Assembly (NCBI RefSeq): GCF_012720115.1
Contig: NZ_VNWN01000007.1
Location: 62,001-126,000, forward strand
Reading direction: 5' to 3'
Origin: Sneathiella chinensis
Lineage (GTDB): Bacteria; Pseudomonadota; Alphaproteobacteria; Sneathiellales; Sneathiellaceae
Length of the DNA stretch: 64,000 bases
The notes under the pieces are model-generated. The model was given only the letters and a program-made list of their open reading frames with translations. It did no database searches and had not been told where the DNA came from. How positions within the stretch are numbered: the first letter of the stretch is position 1; the number at the start of each line of letters is the position of its first letter. Of the stretch, positions 5,803-35,750 are shown in pieces. The position numbers were made by a program, and so were the translations under genes.

Positions 5803-6798
5803 ATGGCTGTTCTGGATATTTCCGATCTGTCTATCGAGTTTCCAACCCGCCGCGGTATCCTCAGTGCTGTTGAGGGACTGTCCCTGTCCATTGAGGCCGG
5901 CGAGATTCTGGGGGTTGTGGGCGAATCCGGGGCGGGAAAATCCCTGACCGGCAATGCGGTTGTGGGCCTGCTGGAGCCGCCCGGCCGGGTTTCCGGCGGG
6001 ACCATCCGCCTGAACGGCGAGGATATCACCCATCTGTCCGAAAACGCCATGCGCCGGGTTCGCGGGGCACAGATAGGCGTTATCTTCCAGGACCCGCTGA
6101 CCAGCCTTGATCCGCTTTATACCATCGGTCGGCAATTGACCCAGACCATCCTGACCCACCAAAAGCTGAGCGCCGCCGGGGCACGGGACAAGGCCATCCA
6201 GTTATTATCCGAGGTGGGCATCCCCGCCCCTGAACGCCGCTTTGACGCCTATCCCCACGAATTTTCCGGCGGGATGCGTCAACGGGTGGTGATCGCGCTG
6301 GCGCTTTGTTGTGATCCCTGCCTGATCATCGCGGACGAGCCGACAACGGCACTGGATGTGTCGGTTCAGGCGCAGATCATCGACCTGTTGAAAAAACTGG
6401 CCCGGGAAAAGGGGGTCGCCACCATGCTGGTGACCCATGACATGGGGGTCATTGCCGAAACCGCCGATCGGGTGGCCGTCATCTATTCCGGGCGCCTTGT
6501 GGAAATGGGCAAGGTCCGGGATGTGATCGACACGCCCCGCCATCCCTATACCCGGGGCCTGATGGATTCCATTCCCCAGATCGGCCAGAATCTCAGAACC
6601 CTCCCGAATATCGAGGGGGCCATGCCGCGCCTCAACGCGCGGCCGGAGGGATGTGCCTTCAATCCGCGGTGCACACAAACCCTGGACCGCTGTTTCAGGC
6701 ATGTCCCTCCACTTGACACCACTGCGGATGAGCAGCGGCAGGTTGCCTGCTGGCTTTTGACAGAACAGGAAAACAGGAAGGAAACCGCCTATGCCTGA
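5803..6798 (+). CDS. Peptide ABC transporter ATP-binding protein (DppD-like)
   Basis: A 331-residue ATPase of the oligopeptide/dipeptide type. Walker A is GESGAGKS at residues 40-47, the ABC signature is FSGGMRQR and Walker B is LIIADEPT. The C-terminal oligopeptide-transporter extension has a Cys-rich segment (GCAFNPRCTQTLDRC), which in relatives can bind an iron-sulfur cluster. The ATG at 5803 lies five bases after the permease stop. It overlaps the next ATPase gene by eight bases, indicating one operon. Confidence 0.94.
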   Translation: MAVLDISDLSIEFPTRRGILSAVEGLSLSIEAGEILGVVGESGAGKSLTGNAVVGLLEPPGRVSGGTIRLNGEDITHLSENAMRRVRGAQIGVIFQDPLTSLDPLYTIGRQLTQTILTHQKLSAAGARDKAIQLLSEVGIPAPERRFDAYPHEFSGGMRQRVVIALALCCDPCLIIADEPTTALDVSVQAQIIDLLKKLAREKGVATMLVTHDMGVIAETADRVAVIYSGRLVEMGKVRDVIDTPRHPYTRGLMDSIPQIGQNLRTLPNIEGAMPRLNARPEGCAFNPRCTQTLDRCFRHVPPLDTTADEQRQVACWLLTEQENRKETAYA

Positions 6799-23640: not shown

Positions 23641-24239
23641 GCCGATCAGGCCCCGATCTGTTGCAAAAAGACCTGATCCATTTGGATCATGCGTCCGTTT
23701 TTTCCCTGTTATTTTCACGCCATAGCAGGAATTATTCATCTGATAGAACTTGTTCCAAAATTGCGACAGGGGGGCAAAAAAAATGCGCCCGCCTTGCCCC
23801 TACCCCAACAGTAAACACTAACATAAGTAGTAAATTACCTATATCTTTTGGGGTGATATTTTCCCTATTCTGCCAGCAACTTAAAAAGCCATGCCGGGCG
23901 GAAAAGCATTTTGCACACCGCCCCGCCCTTTTTCGGCGAAGGTCGGTTGCCAGCACCTCTCTCACGCTACCAGCCCTCTTTCCCACATCCTATTGATGTG
24001 AAAGGACGCAACGGCGTTCCTTTTCAAATAAACCCAATAAATCAATGAATAAAAACATTAAATGGAATCCCGTAAAACAACAGCGCACCCAGAATTATTC
24101 CCAATAACTAGAAAAACGACCAAGAAATTGACGCAATAAATTAAAAATACACCGCAATAAAAAAGAACAAATAGTACAACTTTACAGATTAATGGCATGA
24201 CCATAACCTCCCTTTATTAACACAAAGGAGATTTTCACC
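23641..24239. other. AT-rich intergenic leader before the repeat-protein gene
   Basis: About 600 bases without a supported gene. It is markedly richer in A+T than the rest of the window, especially 24000-24220, with many A-tracts. A 111-codon reading at 23661-23996 has no ribosome-binding site and no recognisable features. The last 20 bases hold a strong AAAGGAG ribosome-binding site (24226-24232) for the gene at 24240. Such AT-rich leaders often mark silenced, regulated or acquired genes. I could not fix a -35/-10 pair. Confidence 0.6.
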
Positions 24240-24815
24240 ATGCCAAAAGCCCATACTCATACATCCCCCACCACCACTACCAACGCTTGTTTCAAGAAAG
24301 ACGCCCGCATTGCCGATCCCGGCACCGTGCGGATCGGCAACATGAGTCCCGCCTTCCGCGTCTCTCGCGATGCCTCGGCCAGCGTTCGGGATGATGAAAA
24401 ACTCCGGATCGGGAACATGAGCCCCGCCTTCCGTGTCTCTCGCGACGCCCCGGCCAGCGTTCGGGATGATGAAAAACTCCGGATCGGGAACATGAGCCCC
24501 GCCTTCCGTGTCTCCCGCGACGCCCCGGCCAGCGTTCAGGATGATGAAAAGCTCCGTATTGGCAACATGAGCCCCGCCTTCCGCGTCTCTCGTGATGCCC
24601 CGGCCAGCGTTCGGGATGATGAAAAACTCCGTATCGGCAACATGAGCCCCGCCTTCCGTGTCGCTCGCGATGCCCCGGCCAGCGTTCGGGATGATGAAAA
24701 ACTCCGTATCGGCAACATGAGCCCCGCCTTCCGTGTCGCTCGCGATGCCCCGGCCAGCGTTCGGGATGATGAAAAGCTCCGGATCGGCAACATGAGCCCG
24801 ATTTTCAAGCGGTAA
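24240..24815 (+). CDS. Tandem-repeat protein: 30-residue leader plus six 25-residue repeats and a partial one
   Basis: A 191-residue protein with no signal peptide. Residues 1-30 are polar and His/Thr-rich with the only cysteine (Cys17). From residue 31 come six near-identical 25-residue units built on RIGNMSPAFRV and then S/A-RDAPASVRDDEKL, ending in a shortened copy RIGNMSPIFKR. Differences between copies are mostly third-codon changes (cgg/cgt, atc/att, ggg/ggc, gac/gat), so the plus-frame protein is under selection. A strong AAAGGAG lies 8 bases before the ATG. The leader-plus-repeated-core plan resembles multi-core peptide precursors, or a repetitive scaffold. I know no family for it. 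An uncharacterised gene follows 43 bases downstream. Confidence 0.85.
   Translation: MPKAHTHTSPTTTTNACFKKDARIADPGTVRIGNMSPAFRVSRDASASVRDDEKLRIGNMSPAFRVSRDAPASVRDDEKLRIGNMSPAFRVSRDAPASVQDDEKLRIGNMSPAFRVSRDAPASVRDDEKLRIGNMSPAFRVARDAPASVRDDEKLRIGNMSPAFRVARDAPASVRDDEKLRIGNMSPIFKR
24330..24812 (+). repeat. Tandem array of 75-base coding repeats (6 full copies plus a partial)
   Basis: Units start at 24330, 24405, 24480, 24555, 24630 and 24705, each exactly 75 bases, with a partial seventh at 24780. There is no spacer and every unit keeps frame. Copies 5 and 6 share VARD in place of VSRD, suggesting recent duplication of neighbouring units. Confidence 0.97.
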
Positions 24816-24858
24816 ACTGACAGTAAACACCCAGCCTGTTCCCAGCAAGGAGATCTGT

Positions 24859-25668
24859 ATGCATCAGGACAGCCCGCGGCTGCCAGACACCCGGCCACAG
24901 GAGACAATTGTCAAATTCTTCCGGCTGATCCCTCACTGTCCGCTTCCGCAGCGTGCCGATCGCGCTGCGGGAGGGTTGTTGCCCACCCGGGCTTTTCGCT
25001 ATTGCGAGCCCATGACCACGGCCTCGGCCTTTGGCTGGTACGCTTTTGCGCCGCTGGATTTCAGTGTGGTCTGGGACGGGGTGGATATTCTCTGGACCTG
25101 GCCCGACGCGGACTCGTGGTATCCGCTGGATGCAGTGCAATTTCCCGATTTCAGGAAAACATTCGATGCGTCCTGCCCGGAAGCACTGCGCGGATATGCG
25201 CCGCCCTTCCTGTCCGCCCCGCCAGAGCCGGGGCTGCTGAAAATCTGGACGGGATTAATTGCCCGCACCGCACCCGACTGGCGCCTTTTGGTACGCGCCC
25301 CCGCCAACCTGCCCCGCAGTCTCAATTTTGAGCATTTCGAAGGCATTATCGAGACGGACCGCTGGTTTGGTCCGCTCTTTACAAACCTGCGCCTGACCAA
25401 AACGGATATCCCGATCCGCTTTCGTACCGATATGCCGCTGGTCCAGTTGCAACCCCTGCACCGGTCCGTTCTGGATGACAAAATGCTGAACAGTTTTGAG
25501 ATCGGCGAAAGCCTTGATGATCTGGACGCATCAGACTGGCAGGCCTATCACGACACGCTTGTCGCGCCGGGCGGCCCGCAGGATCGGGAACGGGGCCTCT
25601 ATGCCCGCACCTCCCGCCAGAACGCCAAAAAGGGAAGCCCGAGCGGCACGGAAGAGCCGCGCCGCTGA
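24859..25668 (+). CDS. Uncharacterised protein paired with the repeat protein (DUF6065-like)
   Basis: A 269-residue soluble protein. The core has several tryptophans and conserved-looking blocks: FRYCEPMTTASAFGW, DFSVVWDG, WTGLIARTAPDW, LLVRAPANLPRS and ETDRWFGPLFTNLRL. From memory this pattern matches an uncharacterised family catalogued as DUF6065, which I cannot confirm here. The C-terminus (last ~25 residues) is basic and low in complexity. An AAGGAG sits 8 bases before the ATG. It is the only gene co-directional with the repeat gene, so it may modify, bind or process the repeat protein; that role is inference. Confidence 0.8.
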   Translation: MHQDSPRLPDTRPQETIVKFFRLIPHCPLPQRADRAAGGLLPTRAFRYCEPMTTASAFGWYAFAPLDFSVVWDGVDILWTWPDADSWYPLDAVQFPDFRKTFDASCPEALRGYAPPFLSAPPEPGLLKIWTGLIARTAPDWRLLVRAPANLPRSLNFEHFEGIIETDRWFGPLFTNLRLTKTDIPIRFRTDMPLVQLQPLHRSVLDDKMLNSFEIGESLDDLDASDWQAYHDTLVAPGGPQDRERGLYARTSRQNAKKGSPSGTEEPRR

Positions 25669-25702: not shown

Positions 25703-26830
25703 TTACAGAATGTCGCCAAGCGCCTTGTTCAGATGGCTCAATGTGCGGTCCATATTATGCAGCTTGTCCAGACCGAACAGGCCAAGGCGGAAGGTTTGGT
25801 AATCGTCCGGTTCGTCACATTGCAGCGGAACACCCGCCGCAATCTGCACACCGATATCGGCAAATTTCTTGCCGTTGTGAACCTGACTGTCATCGGTATA
25901 GAAAACCGCAACGCCCGGTGCCTCAAACCCCGGTGCGGCCACACTGCGGAACTGCTTTTCGGCCATCAGGGCGCGCGCCTTGCGGCCCAATTCCCACTGT
26001 TCCTGCATGACCTTGTCAAAACCGTACTGTTCCGTTTCCTTTACCGTATCCCGGAAGCTGGCCAGCGCATCGGTTGGCAGGGTCGCATGATAGGCATATC
26101 CGCCGTTCTCATAGGCTTCCATGATCTCCACCCATTTCTTGAGATCACAGGCAAAGCTGGAACTGGTGGTTCCGTCAAGTCTTGTGCGGGCCTCGTCCCC
26201 CAGCATCACAAGACCGCAACAGGGCGAAGCACTCCACCCCTTTTGCGGGGCGCTGATCAGGATATCGATGCCGACCGCCTTCATGTCCACCCACACCGTG
26301 CCGGACGCGATGCAATCCAGAACGAACAGGCCGCCAACCTCGTGAATGGCCTCGGCCACGGCTTTCAGATAGTCATCCGGCAGGATGATCCCGGACGCAG
26401 TTTCCACATGGGGGGCAAACACAACATCCGGCTTTTCGCGGCGGATGGTCTCGACAACCTCCTCAACCGGGGGCGGTGCAAAGGCGGCCTGACGCCCGTC
26501 ATTGACCGGGCGGGCCTTCAGCACCGTGGAACTGGCCGGAATGTTGCACGCGTCGAAAATCTGGGTCCAGCGATAGCTGAACCAGCCATTGCGGATGACC
26601 AGTGTTTTCTTGCCTCCGGCAAACTGACGGGCCACTGCCTCCATGGCATAGGTTCCGCCGCCCGGCACAACGGCCACTGATGCCGCGTTGTAAACCGTTT
26701 TCAGGCTGCTGGAGATATCATTCATAACCCCTTGAAAAGACTTGGACATATGATTCAAGGAGCGATCCGTGAAAACCACGGAAAATTCCATCAGTCCATC
26801 CGGGTCCACATCCGGCAACAATCCACCCAT
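25703..26830 (-). CDS. Class V aminotransferase (alanine-glyoxylate / serine-pyruvate type)
   Basis: A 375-residue PLP enzyme of aminotransferase class V. The PLP lysine is in SAPQKGWS (Lys197), after the cofactor aspartate region in FVLDCIAS. VPGGGTYAMEAV near residue 55 matches the phosphate-binding segment of this group. Likely reactions are alanine or serine transamination with glyoxylate or pyruvate; the substrate pair is not settled. I chose the ATG at 26830 because AAAGGAG lies six bases before it; an ATG two codons upstream sits directly on that element. It is convergent with the 24859 gene. Confidence 0.88.
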   Translation of the reverse strand: MGGLLPDVDPDGLMEFSVVFTDRSLNHMSKSFQGVMNDISSSLKTVYNAASVAVVPGGGTYAMEAVARQFAGGKKTLVIRNGWFSYRWTQIFDACNIPASSTVLKARPVNDGRQAAFAPPPVEEVVETIRREKPDVVFAPHVETASGIILPDDYLKAVAEAIHEVGGLFVLDCIASGTVWVDMKAVGIDILISAPQKGWSASPCCGLVMLGDEARTRLDGTTSSSFACDLKKWVEIMEAYENGGYAYHATLPTDALASFRDTVKETEQYGFDKVMQEQWELGRKARALMAEKQFRSVAAPGFEAPGVAVFYTDDSQVHNGKKFADIGVQIAAGVPLQCDEPDDYQTFRLGLFGLDKLHNMDRTLSHLNKALGDIL

Positions 26831-26952
26831 TTCCATCTCCTTTGGCGACAGCGTTATTATTTCTTATCCTATTTCACTATTGAAATCGGGCAGAAAGCAC
26901 AAGAGTTTAATCCCCACCAGCACCCCAAAGACGATACACGGGGGATCAGGGG

Positions 26953-33763: not shown

Positions 33764-34903
33764 TTACCCTAAATGCCGCAAGGTCTTGTCCACCTTGACG
33801 GCAATATTCTGTCCGGACCGGCCCATCTTGCCGGAAACCATCTTCATCCCGCCGCAGTTCAGGACCACCGGACTGTTCGGCGAGGCATTCAGCATGATGG
33901 TATCCCCGATTTCCAGCGACAGGATTTCGTTGAGGGACATCTGCTGCTCGTCCAGAACGGCCATGATATCCACCTCGGTGGACCAGAGTTCGGTGGCAAG
34001 GTGGTTTTCCCAGATGCTGTCGCGGCCGAATTTTTCACCCATGAACATCTGCAGCAGCAATTCACGAACCGGCTCCAGCGTGGCATAGGGCAGAAGAAGT
34101 TCCAGACGGCCGCCCCGGTCCTCCATATCAATCCGCAGCTTGATCAGGATGGCCGCGTTGGCCGGACGGGCAATGGTGGCAAAGCGGGGGTTGGTCTCGA
34201 CCCGTTCCTGATTGAAACTGACCGGGCTGAGCGGCTCGAACGCCGCGGACATATCCGCCAGAATGACGCTCACCATCCGTTCCACAAGGTTCCGTTCAAT
34301 GGTGGTATAGGGCCGCCCCTCAATCCGCATGGCCGCAGTGCCGCGCCGTCCGCCCAGCAGAACGTCCACAATGGAATAGATCAGCGAACTATCGACCATG
34401 ATCAGGCCATAGTTATCCCATTCCTCGGCCCGGAAAACGCTGAGGATCGCCGGAAGCGGAATGGAGTTCAGATAGTCACCAAACCGGATGGAGGTGATAT
34501 TGTCGAGGCTGACTTCCACATTGTCGGACGTGAAATTGCGCAGCGAGGTTGTCATCATGCGCACAAGCCGGTCGAACACCACTTCCAACATGGGAAGACG
34601 TTCATAGTTGACCAGTGCCGAATTGATGATCGCCTTGATACCGGACTTGTCCCCGCCGCCGTCCGCATCCATGTCGAAACCGAGCAGGCTGTCGATTTCA
34701 TCCTGGTTCAGGACACGGGTGGACTGGCCGCTGGCGGCCTCTTCGATACTGGTGCCGGACGGCTCGTCCTCCATGCCCATGGCGGCTGCCATATCCATGT
34801 CGTCATCGCTCATGCCCATGGCCGCGGCCATGTCCATTTCATCGTCGCCGGCTTCTGCGGCCATCGCCGCAGCCATATCCATTTCGTCGTCGAGATCAGC
34901 CAT
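33764..34903 (-). CDS. fliM: Flagellar motor switch protein FliM
   Basis: A 379-residue FliM, the switch subunit that binds CheY-P and controls rotor direction. The CheY-binding peptide LNQDEIDSLLGF is at residues 65-76, not at the extreme N-terminus. It is preceded by an unusual acidic, Met/Ala-rich extension with three copies of D-D-(E/D)-M-D-M-A-A-A-M at residues 5-14, 20-29 and 33-42. The middle (CheC-like) domain and C-terminal SpoA domain (for example LSLEIGDTIML) follow. It sits directly downstream of fliL, the classic pairing. Confidence 0.95.
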   Translation of the reverse strand: MADLDDEMDMAAAMAAEAGDDEMDMAAAMGMSDDDMDMAAAMGMEDEPSGTSIEEAASGQSTRVLNQDEIDSLLGFDMDADGGGDKSGIKAIINSALVNYERLPMLEVVFDRLVRMMTTSLRNFTSDNVEVSLDNITSIRFGDYLNSIPLPAILSVFRAEEWDNYGLIMVDSSLIYSIVDVLLGGRRGTAAMRIEGRPYTTIERNLVERMVSVILADMSAAFEPLSPVSFNQERVETNPRFATIARPANAAILIKLRIDMEDRGGRLELLLPYATLEPVRELLLQMFMGEKFGRDSIWENHLATELWSTEVDIMAVLDEQQMSLNEILSLEIGDTIMLNASPNSPVVLNCGGMKMVSGKMGRSGQNIAVKVDKTLRHLG

Positions 34904-35436: not shown

Positions 35437-35750
35437 AACTGACCGGGCCCTTAATCAAGAATCAATTCTGCTCCAGATTAGGACACTAGAGATGCTTGGT
35501 TAACAAGAGGTTGAAATTCTCCTTTTGCATCTCCTTTTTTGAAATTTTTTTCAACTCTTTTTCAGAAAATTTTAGACATCCGAAGGGTGCCGGAAAATAT
35601 TGCCGTCCCTCCCGGCCAATTGTTCCCCCAAACGCCCCTTCCCCGCCCCGGAAGAAAACCAACCCCTTGATTTACCTGCCTTTTATTTCTGGCACGGCTC
35701 TTGCTTAGTAAGGGGCAGATAACGTTTTTGCCAAAAGGGCGGAGCCAGAA
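35437..35750. promoter_or_regulatory. Divergent flagellar promoter region (fliL / flgF)
   Basis: A 314-base region between divergent flagellar operons. It contains the sigma-54 promoter for flgF (35690-35705), and an AT-rich, T-tract region at 35520-35570 suitable for an activator or bending protein. Near 35500-35510, TTGGTTAACAAG gives a TTAACCAA on the minus strand, loosely like a CtrA half-site, on the fliL side. No sigma-54 element was found facing fliL. Confidence 0.6.
35690..35705 (+). promoter_or_regulatory. Sigma-54 promoter for flgF-flgG-flgA-flgH
   Basis: TGGCACG-N4-TTGCT matches the sigma-54 (RpoN) -24/-12 consensus exactly in the conserved GG and GC, 12 bases apart. Transcription would start near 35717, about 34 bases before the flgF ATG. 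This fits hierarchical control by a FlbD-type activator, known from other alphaproteobacteria. Confidence 0.85.

Follow-up and report, generated by a model that had tools for sequence, protein, structure and literature searches.

A locus of Sneathiella chinensis raises the question of whether a short gene made of repeats and the gene of an uncharacterized family that follows it work together and, if they do, in what way. We have analyzed a window, i.e., the whole stretch of 64,000 nucleotides around them, and both genes were found on its plus strand. The initial annotation described a 191-residue repeat gene with a partner gene 43 bases further on, both behind strong ribosome-binding sites, and the features listed here bear it out.

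24226-24239, plus strand: ribosome-binding site (AAAGGAG) and spacer of the repeat-peptide gene (direct reading)
24240-24815, plus strand: repeat-peptide gene, 191 amino acids, ATG start (open reading frame, codon-position and pN/pS evidence, homologues at the same place in 8 other genomes of the genus)
24240-24329, plus strand: N-terminal 30 residues ahead of the first unit, unconserved in the genus save D26 (alignment of 9 genus peptides)
24330-24779, plus strand: six 75-base units RIGNMSPAFRV[SA]RDA[PS]ASV[RQ]DDEKL (Tandem Repeats Finder and copy comparison)
24780-24812, plus strand: seventh and last unit RIGNMSPIFKR, closing the protein (copy comparison; C-terminal last unit in 65 of 74 proteins)
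24816-24858, plus strand: 43-base gap holding the ribosome-binding site of the partner (AAGGAG) (direct reading)
24859-25668, plus strand: partner gene, 269 amino acids, DUF6065-type, with a predicted dUTPase-like fold (Pfam, profile comparison, structure model, fold searches)

The repeat gene and its partner within Sneathiella

The array of the window (24330-24799) has a period of 75 bases, 6.3 copies, 94% matches and 0% indels, with a score of 807 in Tandem Repeats Finder; the other two tandem arrays of the window scored 112 and 60. Such an array far exceeds what chance would give, and other genomes carry its unit too. The initial description of six exact repeats ending with a short variant was right about the period and the register, which are exact, and needs amending about the copies, which are about 94% alike and not identical, and about the ending, which is a seventh RIGNMSP unit. 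Among the six 75-base copies 12 base positions vary, nine of them third codon positions, and 8 of the 11 variable codons vary synonymously only. The pN/pS was 0.088, a figure that omits the two copy pairs in which the codons TCC and GCT are two bases apart. Mostly synonymous variation together with such a low ratio supports purifying selection on the plus-frame protein, as had been proposed from the copy differences. On the opposite strand a 219-residue open reading frame (24189-24848, minus strand) spans the whole array. We have taken it to be a by-product of the 75-base period, since such a repeat keeps frames open. Two short tandem repeats are found elsewhere in the window, at 34772-34848 (39 bases) and 35523-35573 (24 bases), with about two copies each. 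The Rfam scan of the window matched no family, and the scan for promoters and terminators gave no more matches than shuffled sequence does.

Comparison of seven repeat peptides with NCBIfam and Pfam produced only matches below the curated cut-offs, and the window peptide had none above them. The Pfam model Gp5_trimer_C (E 1.5e-6, 28.8 bits against a cut-off of 30.9) was rejected as repeat-driven. The matches to PHROGs were short and weak (best E 4e-7 over 12 repeat residues) and were read in the same way, including the one to a phage head-closure family (E 5e-7). PADLOC gave one weak match for the window peptide (E 0.016) and none for the partner. A phage or viral origin was also discarded, the scan of viral contigs having yielded 38 pattern matches, none of them encoding a relative.

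Within the genus, 9 of 24 genomes encode the partner, namely that of the window and 8 of the other 23. The repeat peptide is present in exactly these nine, and the remaining 15 have neither gene. A tenth candidate for the peptide (G015, E 0.0017) was discarded, being a weak match antisense within an unrelated gene. In all nine genomes with the pair the peptide ends 11-43 bases before the partner starts. Given the relatedness of the genomes, the probability of this co-occurrence (p = 8e-7) overstates the case. Peptides of the genus range from 2 to 7 units, in which G-N-M-S-P and F are nearly fixed, and their spacers and N-termini vary. The invariant columns of the nine peptides start at D26 and none falls in the first 25 residues. 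The 30-residue leader initially described is thus unconserved even in the genus, which departs from the usual leader-plus-cores plan. Since the invariant columns lie in the units or just before them, any recognition element would lie inside the unit. A gene for a class-V aminotransferase (25706-26836, minus strand) adjoins the pair in the window and is accessory in the genus, being present in 7 of the 9 genomes that have the pair and in 1 of the 15 that do not. It lies near the pair in several genus genomes, but it was discarded as a part of the system, as it does not recur in other lineages.

Distribution of the pair and grammar of the unit

A scan of one genome per species detected 203 relatives of the partner branch, and we retained the best 80. 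At 70 of these 80 loci (best 80 of 203) a related peptide with at least one unit is located directly upstream of the partner. The upstream peptides carry 1-19 units, so that the recurrence of repeat genes of varied unit number beside the partner, proposed at the outset as a check, was indeed found. The 70 loci include five peptides with changed motifs that were recognized by eye only (L116, the weakest, L123, L143, L145 and L149) and one whose frame runs on (L096), and near-copies among the loci (e.g., L080/L082 and L113/L117/L126/L128) mean that they are not 70 independent events. The pair is spread over alpha-, beta- and gammaproteobacteria, with sources in Acetobacteraceae, Rhodospirillales, Bradyrhizobium, Arenicellales, Granulosicoccaceae and one betaproteobacterial bin; several of the source genomes are doubtfully named metagenome bins. 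Cultured carriers include Sneathiella glossodoripedis JCM 23214, Rhodopila globiformis DSM 161 and Roseomonas rosea DSM 14916.

At five of the 80 loci no peptide was seen in the 453 bases or fewer available upstream (L105, L120, L121, L142, L152), and five others have no peptide despite at least 1.6 kb of upstream sequence (L099, L100, L110, L112, L147). The first four of the latter cluster on the partner tree (support 94 in a quick tree). In three of these four genomes a search with a consensus peptide located a matching array at another place (E 1.8e-25, 1.1e-25 and 1.8e-29), with no partner within 1.5 kb downstream. The fourth genome gave a chance-level match only (E 0.024) and the genome of L147 none. 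The genomes with the unlinked peptide are metagenome bins, in which mis-binning is possible. Taken with the nine genus genomes and the 70 wider loci, this co-retention supports the view that the two genes act as a system even where they lie apart, and the partnership put forward in the initial annotation stands as such.

We have also examined 150 genomes of one further family (that of G410), where the partner (at E 1e-20 or better) was present in 50, the peptide in 31 and both in 29 (Fisher p 3e-15, with relatedness ignored). The peptide query spanned two unit types only, from which we conclude that the 21 genomes with the partner alone mostly hold other unit types. In the two genomes with the peptide alone the contig ends inside the array or directly behind it, on the side on which the partner is expected. 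A second draw in the same family, partly made of genomes of the first, showed an upstream peptide at 28 of 30 partner loci.

As a control of position, units fitting a loose motif in one frame were counted in the compartments around the partner. At least three of them were found in 46/72 upstream sense compartments, against 7/72 upstream antisense, 1/73 downstream sense and 2/73 downstream antisense. With at least two units the figures were 57/72 and 13/72 upstream (sense and antisense) and 7/73 and 8/73 downstream. Distant 1-kb strands reached 124/1050 at this level, so two-unit matches alone are weak evidence.

The partner of the window scores above the cut-off of Pfam DUF6065 (PF19541; 58.2 bits against 26.6, the best stretch covering profile positions 85-166 of 236). 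This is its only match in Pfam, and it has none in NCBIfam. Ordinary members of DUF6065, however, have no unit peptide nearby (0 of 30 loci, L027-L056, three of which were re-read with more flank as L072-L074), nor was one found at the five loci of a third DUF6065-like group (L058-L062). Repeats seen at three ordinary loci (L033, L038, L048) were unrelated or of low complexity and were discarded. Therefore, a partner family that occurs routinely without a repeat gene, an outcome that the initial annotation had set against the system, is what we find in the wide Pfam family and not in the branch of the window. Among the loci read, the linkage is exclusive to this branch of DUF6065, and the partnership is strongly supported. 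The third DUF6065-like group has a neighbor of its own, a conserved gene encoding about 120 residues (MPYL[DK]DED...) seen at L058 (5643-6020, with the DUF6065-like gene at 6020-6730), L060 and L061 (5599-5976 and 5979-6689). The one scanned had no Pfam match, and this is perhaps another undescribed pair.

The peptides upstream of the partner branch share a unit of consensus A-D-x-G-K-V-R-L-G-G-x-[AS]-P-x-[LF]. In a logo of 332 units from 74 proteins, weighted by protein and with the anchor G at 100% by construction, the positions ahead of the anchor are D at -7 (90%), G at -5 (64%), K/R at -4 (75%), V at -3 (74%), R at -2 (82%) and L at -1 (71%). After it come G, N, A or S, then P (71%) or R (22%) at +4 and L/F (79%) at +6. 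No Cys, Ser or Thr is conserved over all unit types of this logo. Among the types are GNMSPAF, GGMSPSL, GGFAPTL, GGYAPTL, GGLSPLF, GGVAPAL, TGGLQRAI and FRLP. The last unit lies 0-4 residues from the C-terminus in 65 of the 74 proteins, and masked stretches disturb L087 and L091 among the nine exceptions. Units mostly follow one another at 17, 18, 20, 24 or 25 residues depending on the lineage, and the spacing is constant in 53 of the 63 multi-unit proteins. Of the 10 flagged as varied, four owe it to stray matches (L075, L083, L095, L153) and six look real. Mapped on the partner tree, the unit types require 24 changes against a shuffled mean of 54.1, and 0 of 200 shuffles gave so low a number (the absence of a peptide was counted as a label, and five rows were long). 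Unit and partner are therefore inherited together, which fits recognition, though shared descent alone could give the same pattern.

Apart from the partner and the frames on its opposite strand, only one family recurs to a comparable extent in the 81 neighborhoods clustered. It consists of BTAD/TPR regulator-like proteins of about 700 residues, found within a few kb of the pair in 36 of the 81 loci and in several orientations (e.g., L057 7438-9468, minus strand, from the neighbor clustering). The Pfam BTAD domain was present in five of the seven members scanned, and the other two (L113 and L128) had TPRs only. BTAD regulators are known from antibiotic gene clusters. The pair of the window has no such gene adjacent, the nearest match in its genome being on another contig and 29% identical; this gene (G000 C16 118299-120266, L159) holds one in-frame TAG. 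No dedicated protease and no exporter recurs in these neighborhoods, many of which are truncated at contig ends (62 of 80 loci had 3 kb of sequence downstream and 49 had 2.5 kb upstream). The only further enzyme that recurs in the 81 is of the PmbA/TldD type, in 11, its gene ending just ahead of the peptide gene (L082, L083, L085, L089, L092, L093, L098, L104, L111, L122, L133; Pfam-confirmed in the two scanned). We have discarded this metallopeptidase as a dedicated protease in view of its place among housekeeping genes, presumably for haem A synthase, cytidylate kinase and an AroA-type enzyme as judged by eye. The clustering of the neighbors of ordinary DUF6065 genes was uninformative.

The partner and its predicted fold

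The repeat-linked branch diverges much in sequence from ordinary DUF6065 and has extra sequence about residues 78-120. The profile comparison nevertheless gives a probability of 99.0% (E 3.5e-18) for its relation to ordinary members and of 95.7% for that to the third group, the latter from a profile of only three rows. Cys49 and an [ED]-T-D at 165-167 align across the three groups. Within the branch, R32, R44, R47, N150, N176, Q196, Q198 and R202 are kept in 71-73 of 73 sequences, and the C-terminal stretch of the partner is conserved around G246. This conserved polar set looks like an active site, which makes the partner a candidate enzyme. In one metagenome bin (L068 4648-5907, genome G004) the partner frame overruns its usual end and the C-terminus is altered, as a frameshift close to the 3' end would make it.

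The AlphaFold2 model of the partner (73 sequences, mean pLDDT 84.6, pTM 0.76) predicts a dUTPase fold. Foldseek against the PDB gave 53 matches at E <=0.001 (best E 5.1e-5), and the 50 listed were all dUTPases. TM values of 0.55-0.74 normalised on the target and of about 0.35 on the query indicate that about half of the partner is dUTPase-like in the model and the rest is extra. In VIA-align the 50 rows shown were again all dUTPases (3ecy with Z 11.5 and rmsd 2.8 over 119 residues). A fold search among viral models ranked uncharacterized phage proteins (best E 3.8e-10) ahead of dUTPases, matches that tell of the wider fold family only. The resemblance does not extend to the sequence. The partner profile did not match the dUTPase of its own genome (probability 0.2%), a true dUTPase being encoded elsewhere in it, Pfam dUTPase (PF00692) was absent among the hits of the partner up to E 10, and the comparison with PDB sequences gave nothing convincing (best E 0.21). 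The conserved G-x-x-E-T-D motif of the partner and its Q196 may correspond in position to dUTPase motifs III and IV. Compared with dUTPases and other beta-clip proteins, then, the partner shares the predicted fold, has no sequence match and carries extra N- and C-terminal parts.

Possible roles of the pair

The reading that we tentatively put first is that of a two-gene peptide system in which a multi-unit precursor is recognized and modified by the partner. The first gene would supply a string of 1-19 near-identical units, the last of them forming the C-terminus, each made up of a part for docking (A-D-x-G-[KR]-V-R-L-G) and a second half specific to the lineage (x-x-[SA]-P-x-[LF], or FRLP, LQRAI, INLIKP and others). 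The partner, with its dUTPase-like fold, would recognize and dock on each unit and modify or prime it. General proteases would then free the units, whose number would set the yield. The docking, the direction from substrate to enzyme, the modification and the release are inferred. The constant pairing, the motif within the unit and the C-terminal last unit suggest that each unit is read by the partner. We rank modification of a precursor first because the number of units is free between 1 and 19, the spacers drift, the partner has residues like those of an active site and the recurrent regulator is of the type of antibiotic clusters. It is supported by the linkage within and beyond the genus, exclusive of ordinary DUF6065, and seemingly also by the invariant polar residues of the partner, such as an enzyme would keep. 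What counts against it is that there is no universal modifiable residue, that the leader is unconserved and that no exporter or protease recurs. The partner also matches no known peptide-modifying family in Pfam or NCBIfam.

A close rival, somewhat less probable in our judgment, is that the units bind the partner and remain unchanged. The string would be a multivalent scaffold that gathers copies of the partner, or sequesters it by competing for its active site, and the number of units would tune avidity, the partner being trimeric if it assembles like dUTPases. The linkage serves this explanation as well as modification. Conservation in the unit is that of a recognition motif and does not center on a residue that could be modified. 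Binding of dUTPases to the protein Stl is known, and complexes are among the fold-search matches listed. We place binding as high as second because of the lack of a universal modifiable residue and of recurrent export or processing genes. However, peptides with a single unit exist (L113, L117, L126, L128, L134, L123, L145), showing that multivalency is not essential, and a scaffold does not need the last unit to be so strictly C-terminal.

It is unlikely that the peptide is a structural protein whose units stack into a beta-solenoid or a similar surface or filament protein, with the partner aiding assembly. Of the five AlphaFold models of the window protein one has regular strands (mean pLDDT 70), which would suit such a role better than that of a modified precursor, and the constant spacing of most multi-unit proteins agrees with it. 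But the other four models have mean pLDDT of 36-45, and confident models on near-perfect repeats are often artefacts. Besides, unit length differs between lineages, mostly from 14 to 25 residues, and varies within some proteins, and one-unit peptides cannot stack. Even less probable is that the units serve the dUTPase-like partner in trans as its mobile C-terminal arm. In dUTPases the active site is closed by an arm rich in glycine, R-G-x-G-G-F-G-S-T-G, which K-V-R-L-G-G-F-A-P-T loosely resembles, and the predicted fold of the partner would allow it. Nevertheless, the register is inexact, neither the Sneathiella unit (RIGNMSPAF) nor that of Roseomonas (VSTGGLQRAI) fits, and a conserved C-terminal stretch belongs to the partner itself. 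That the two genes are unrelated neighbors and the repeats a product of slippage is hardly credible: descent could account for the presence pattern in the genus, where the nearby aminotransferase behaves similarly, but the linkage over many proteobacterial groups, the purifying selection and the co-retention when unlinked contradict it.

Among known systems, the precursor reading brings the pair closest to the multi-core precursors of ribosomal peptides (RiPPs) such as cyanobactins and fungal dikaritins. Like in those, a short gene lies by one uncharacterized protein, the number of units is variable, the spacers are free to change and the last unit is at the C-terminus. The vicinity of a small gene to a candidate maturation protein, by which RiPP precursors are recognized, is found in 9/9 genus genomes with the partner and at 70/80 further loci. 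Unlike in those, the leader is unconserved and the recognition part would be within every unit, and no known modifying enzyme, exporter or dedicated protease recurs in the neighborhoods available, modification being here only proposed. Microcin B17-type peptides are matured by TldD/TldE. At the loci studied here the likeness goes as far as the TldD-type gene upstream in 11, and no microcin-modifying enzymes were seen.

In the full text held by PubMed Central (subscription papers and preprints being outside it) we have found no paper with DUF6065, KVRLGG or six unit strings, nor any that joins Sneathiella with RiPP, or tandem repeat with dUTPase, peptide and Roseomonas. Neither DUF6065 nor PF19541 occurs among the matches listed there for the literature on PF19541, dUTPase-like and beta-clip proteins. 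No family model accommodates the peptide, the branch of the partner has no assigned function, and the conserved leader expected of the nearest kind is not found. The system claim is strong, the biochemical reading a candidate only. It is possible, although we would not lean on it, that these genes represent a new class of ribosomal peptides, with arrays of C-terminal-type units, a docking motif inside the unit and maturation by a protein of dUTPase-like fold. To our knowledge, this fold is not known as a scaffold of peptide-modifying enzymes.

The pair is a widespread and strictly linked two-gene system, and its cultured carriers make it testable at once. If the modification is true, it would be a new kind of RiPP. 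If it is the partner that modifies the units, the dUTPase fold would gain a new chemistry and the pair would offer a compact two-gene route to repeated peptides for mining. If the partner only binds them, a dUTPase-like protein would be under a novel type of multivalent control.
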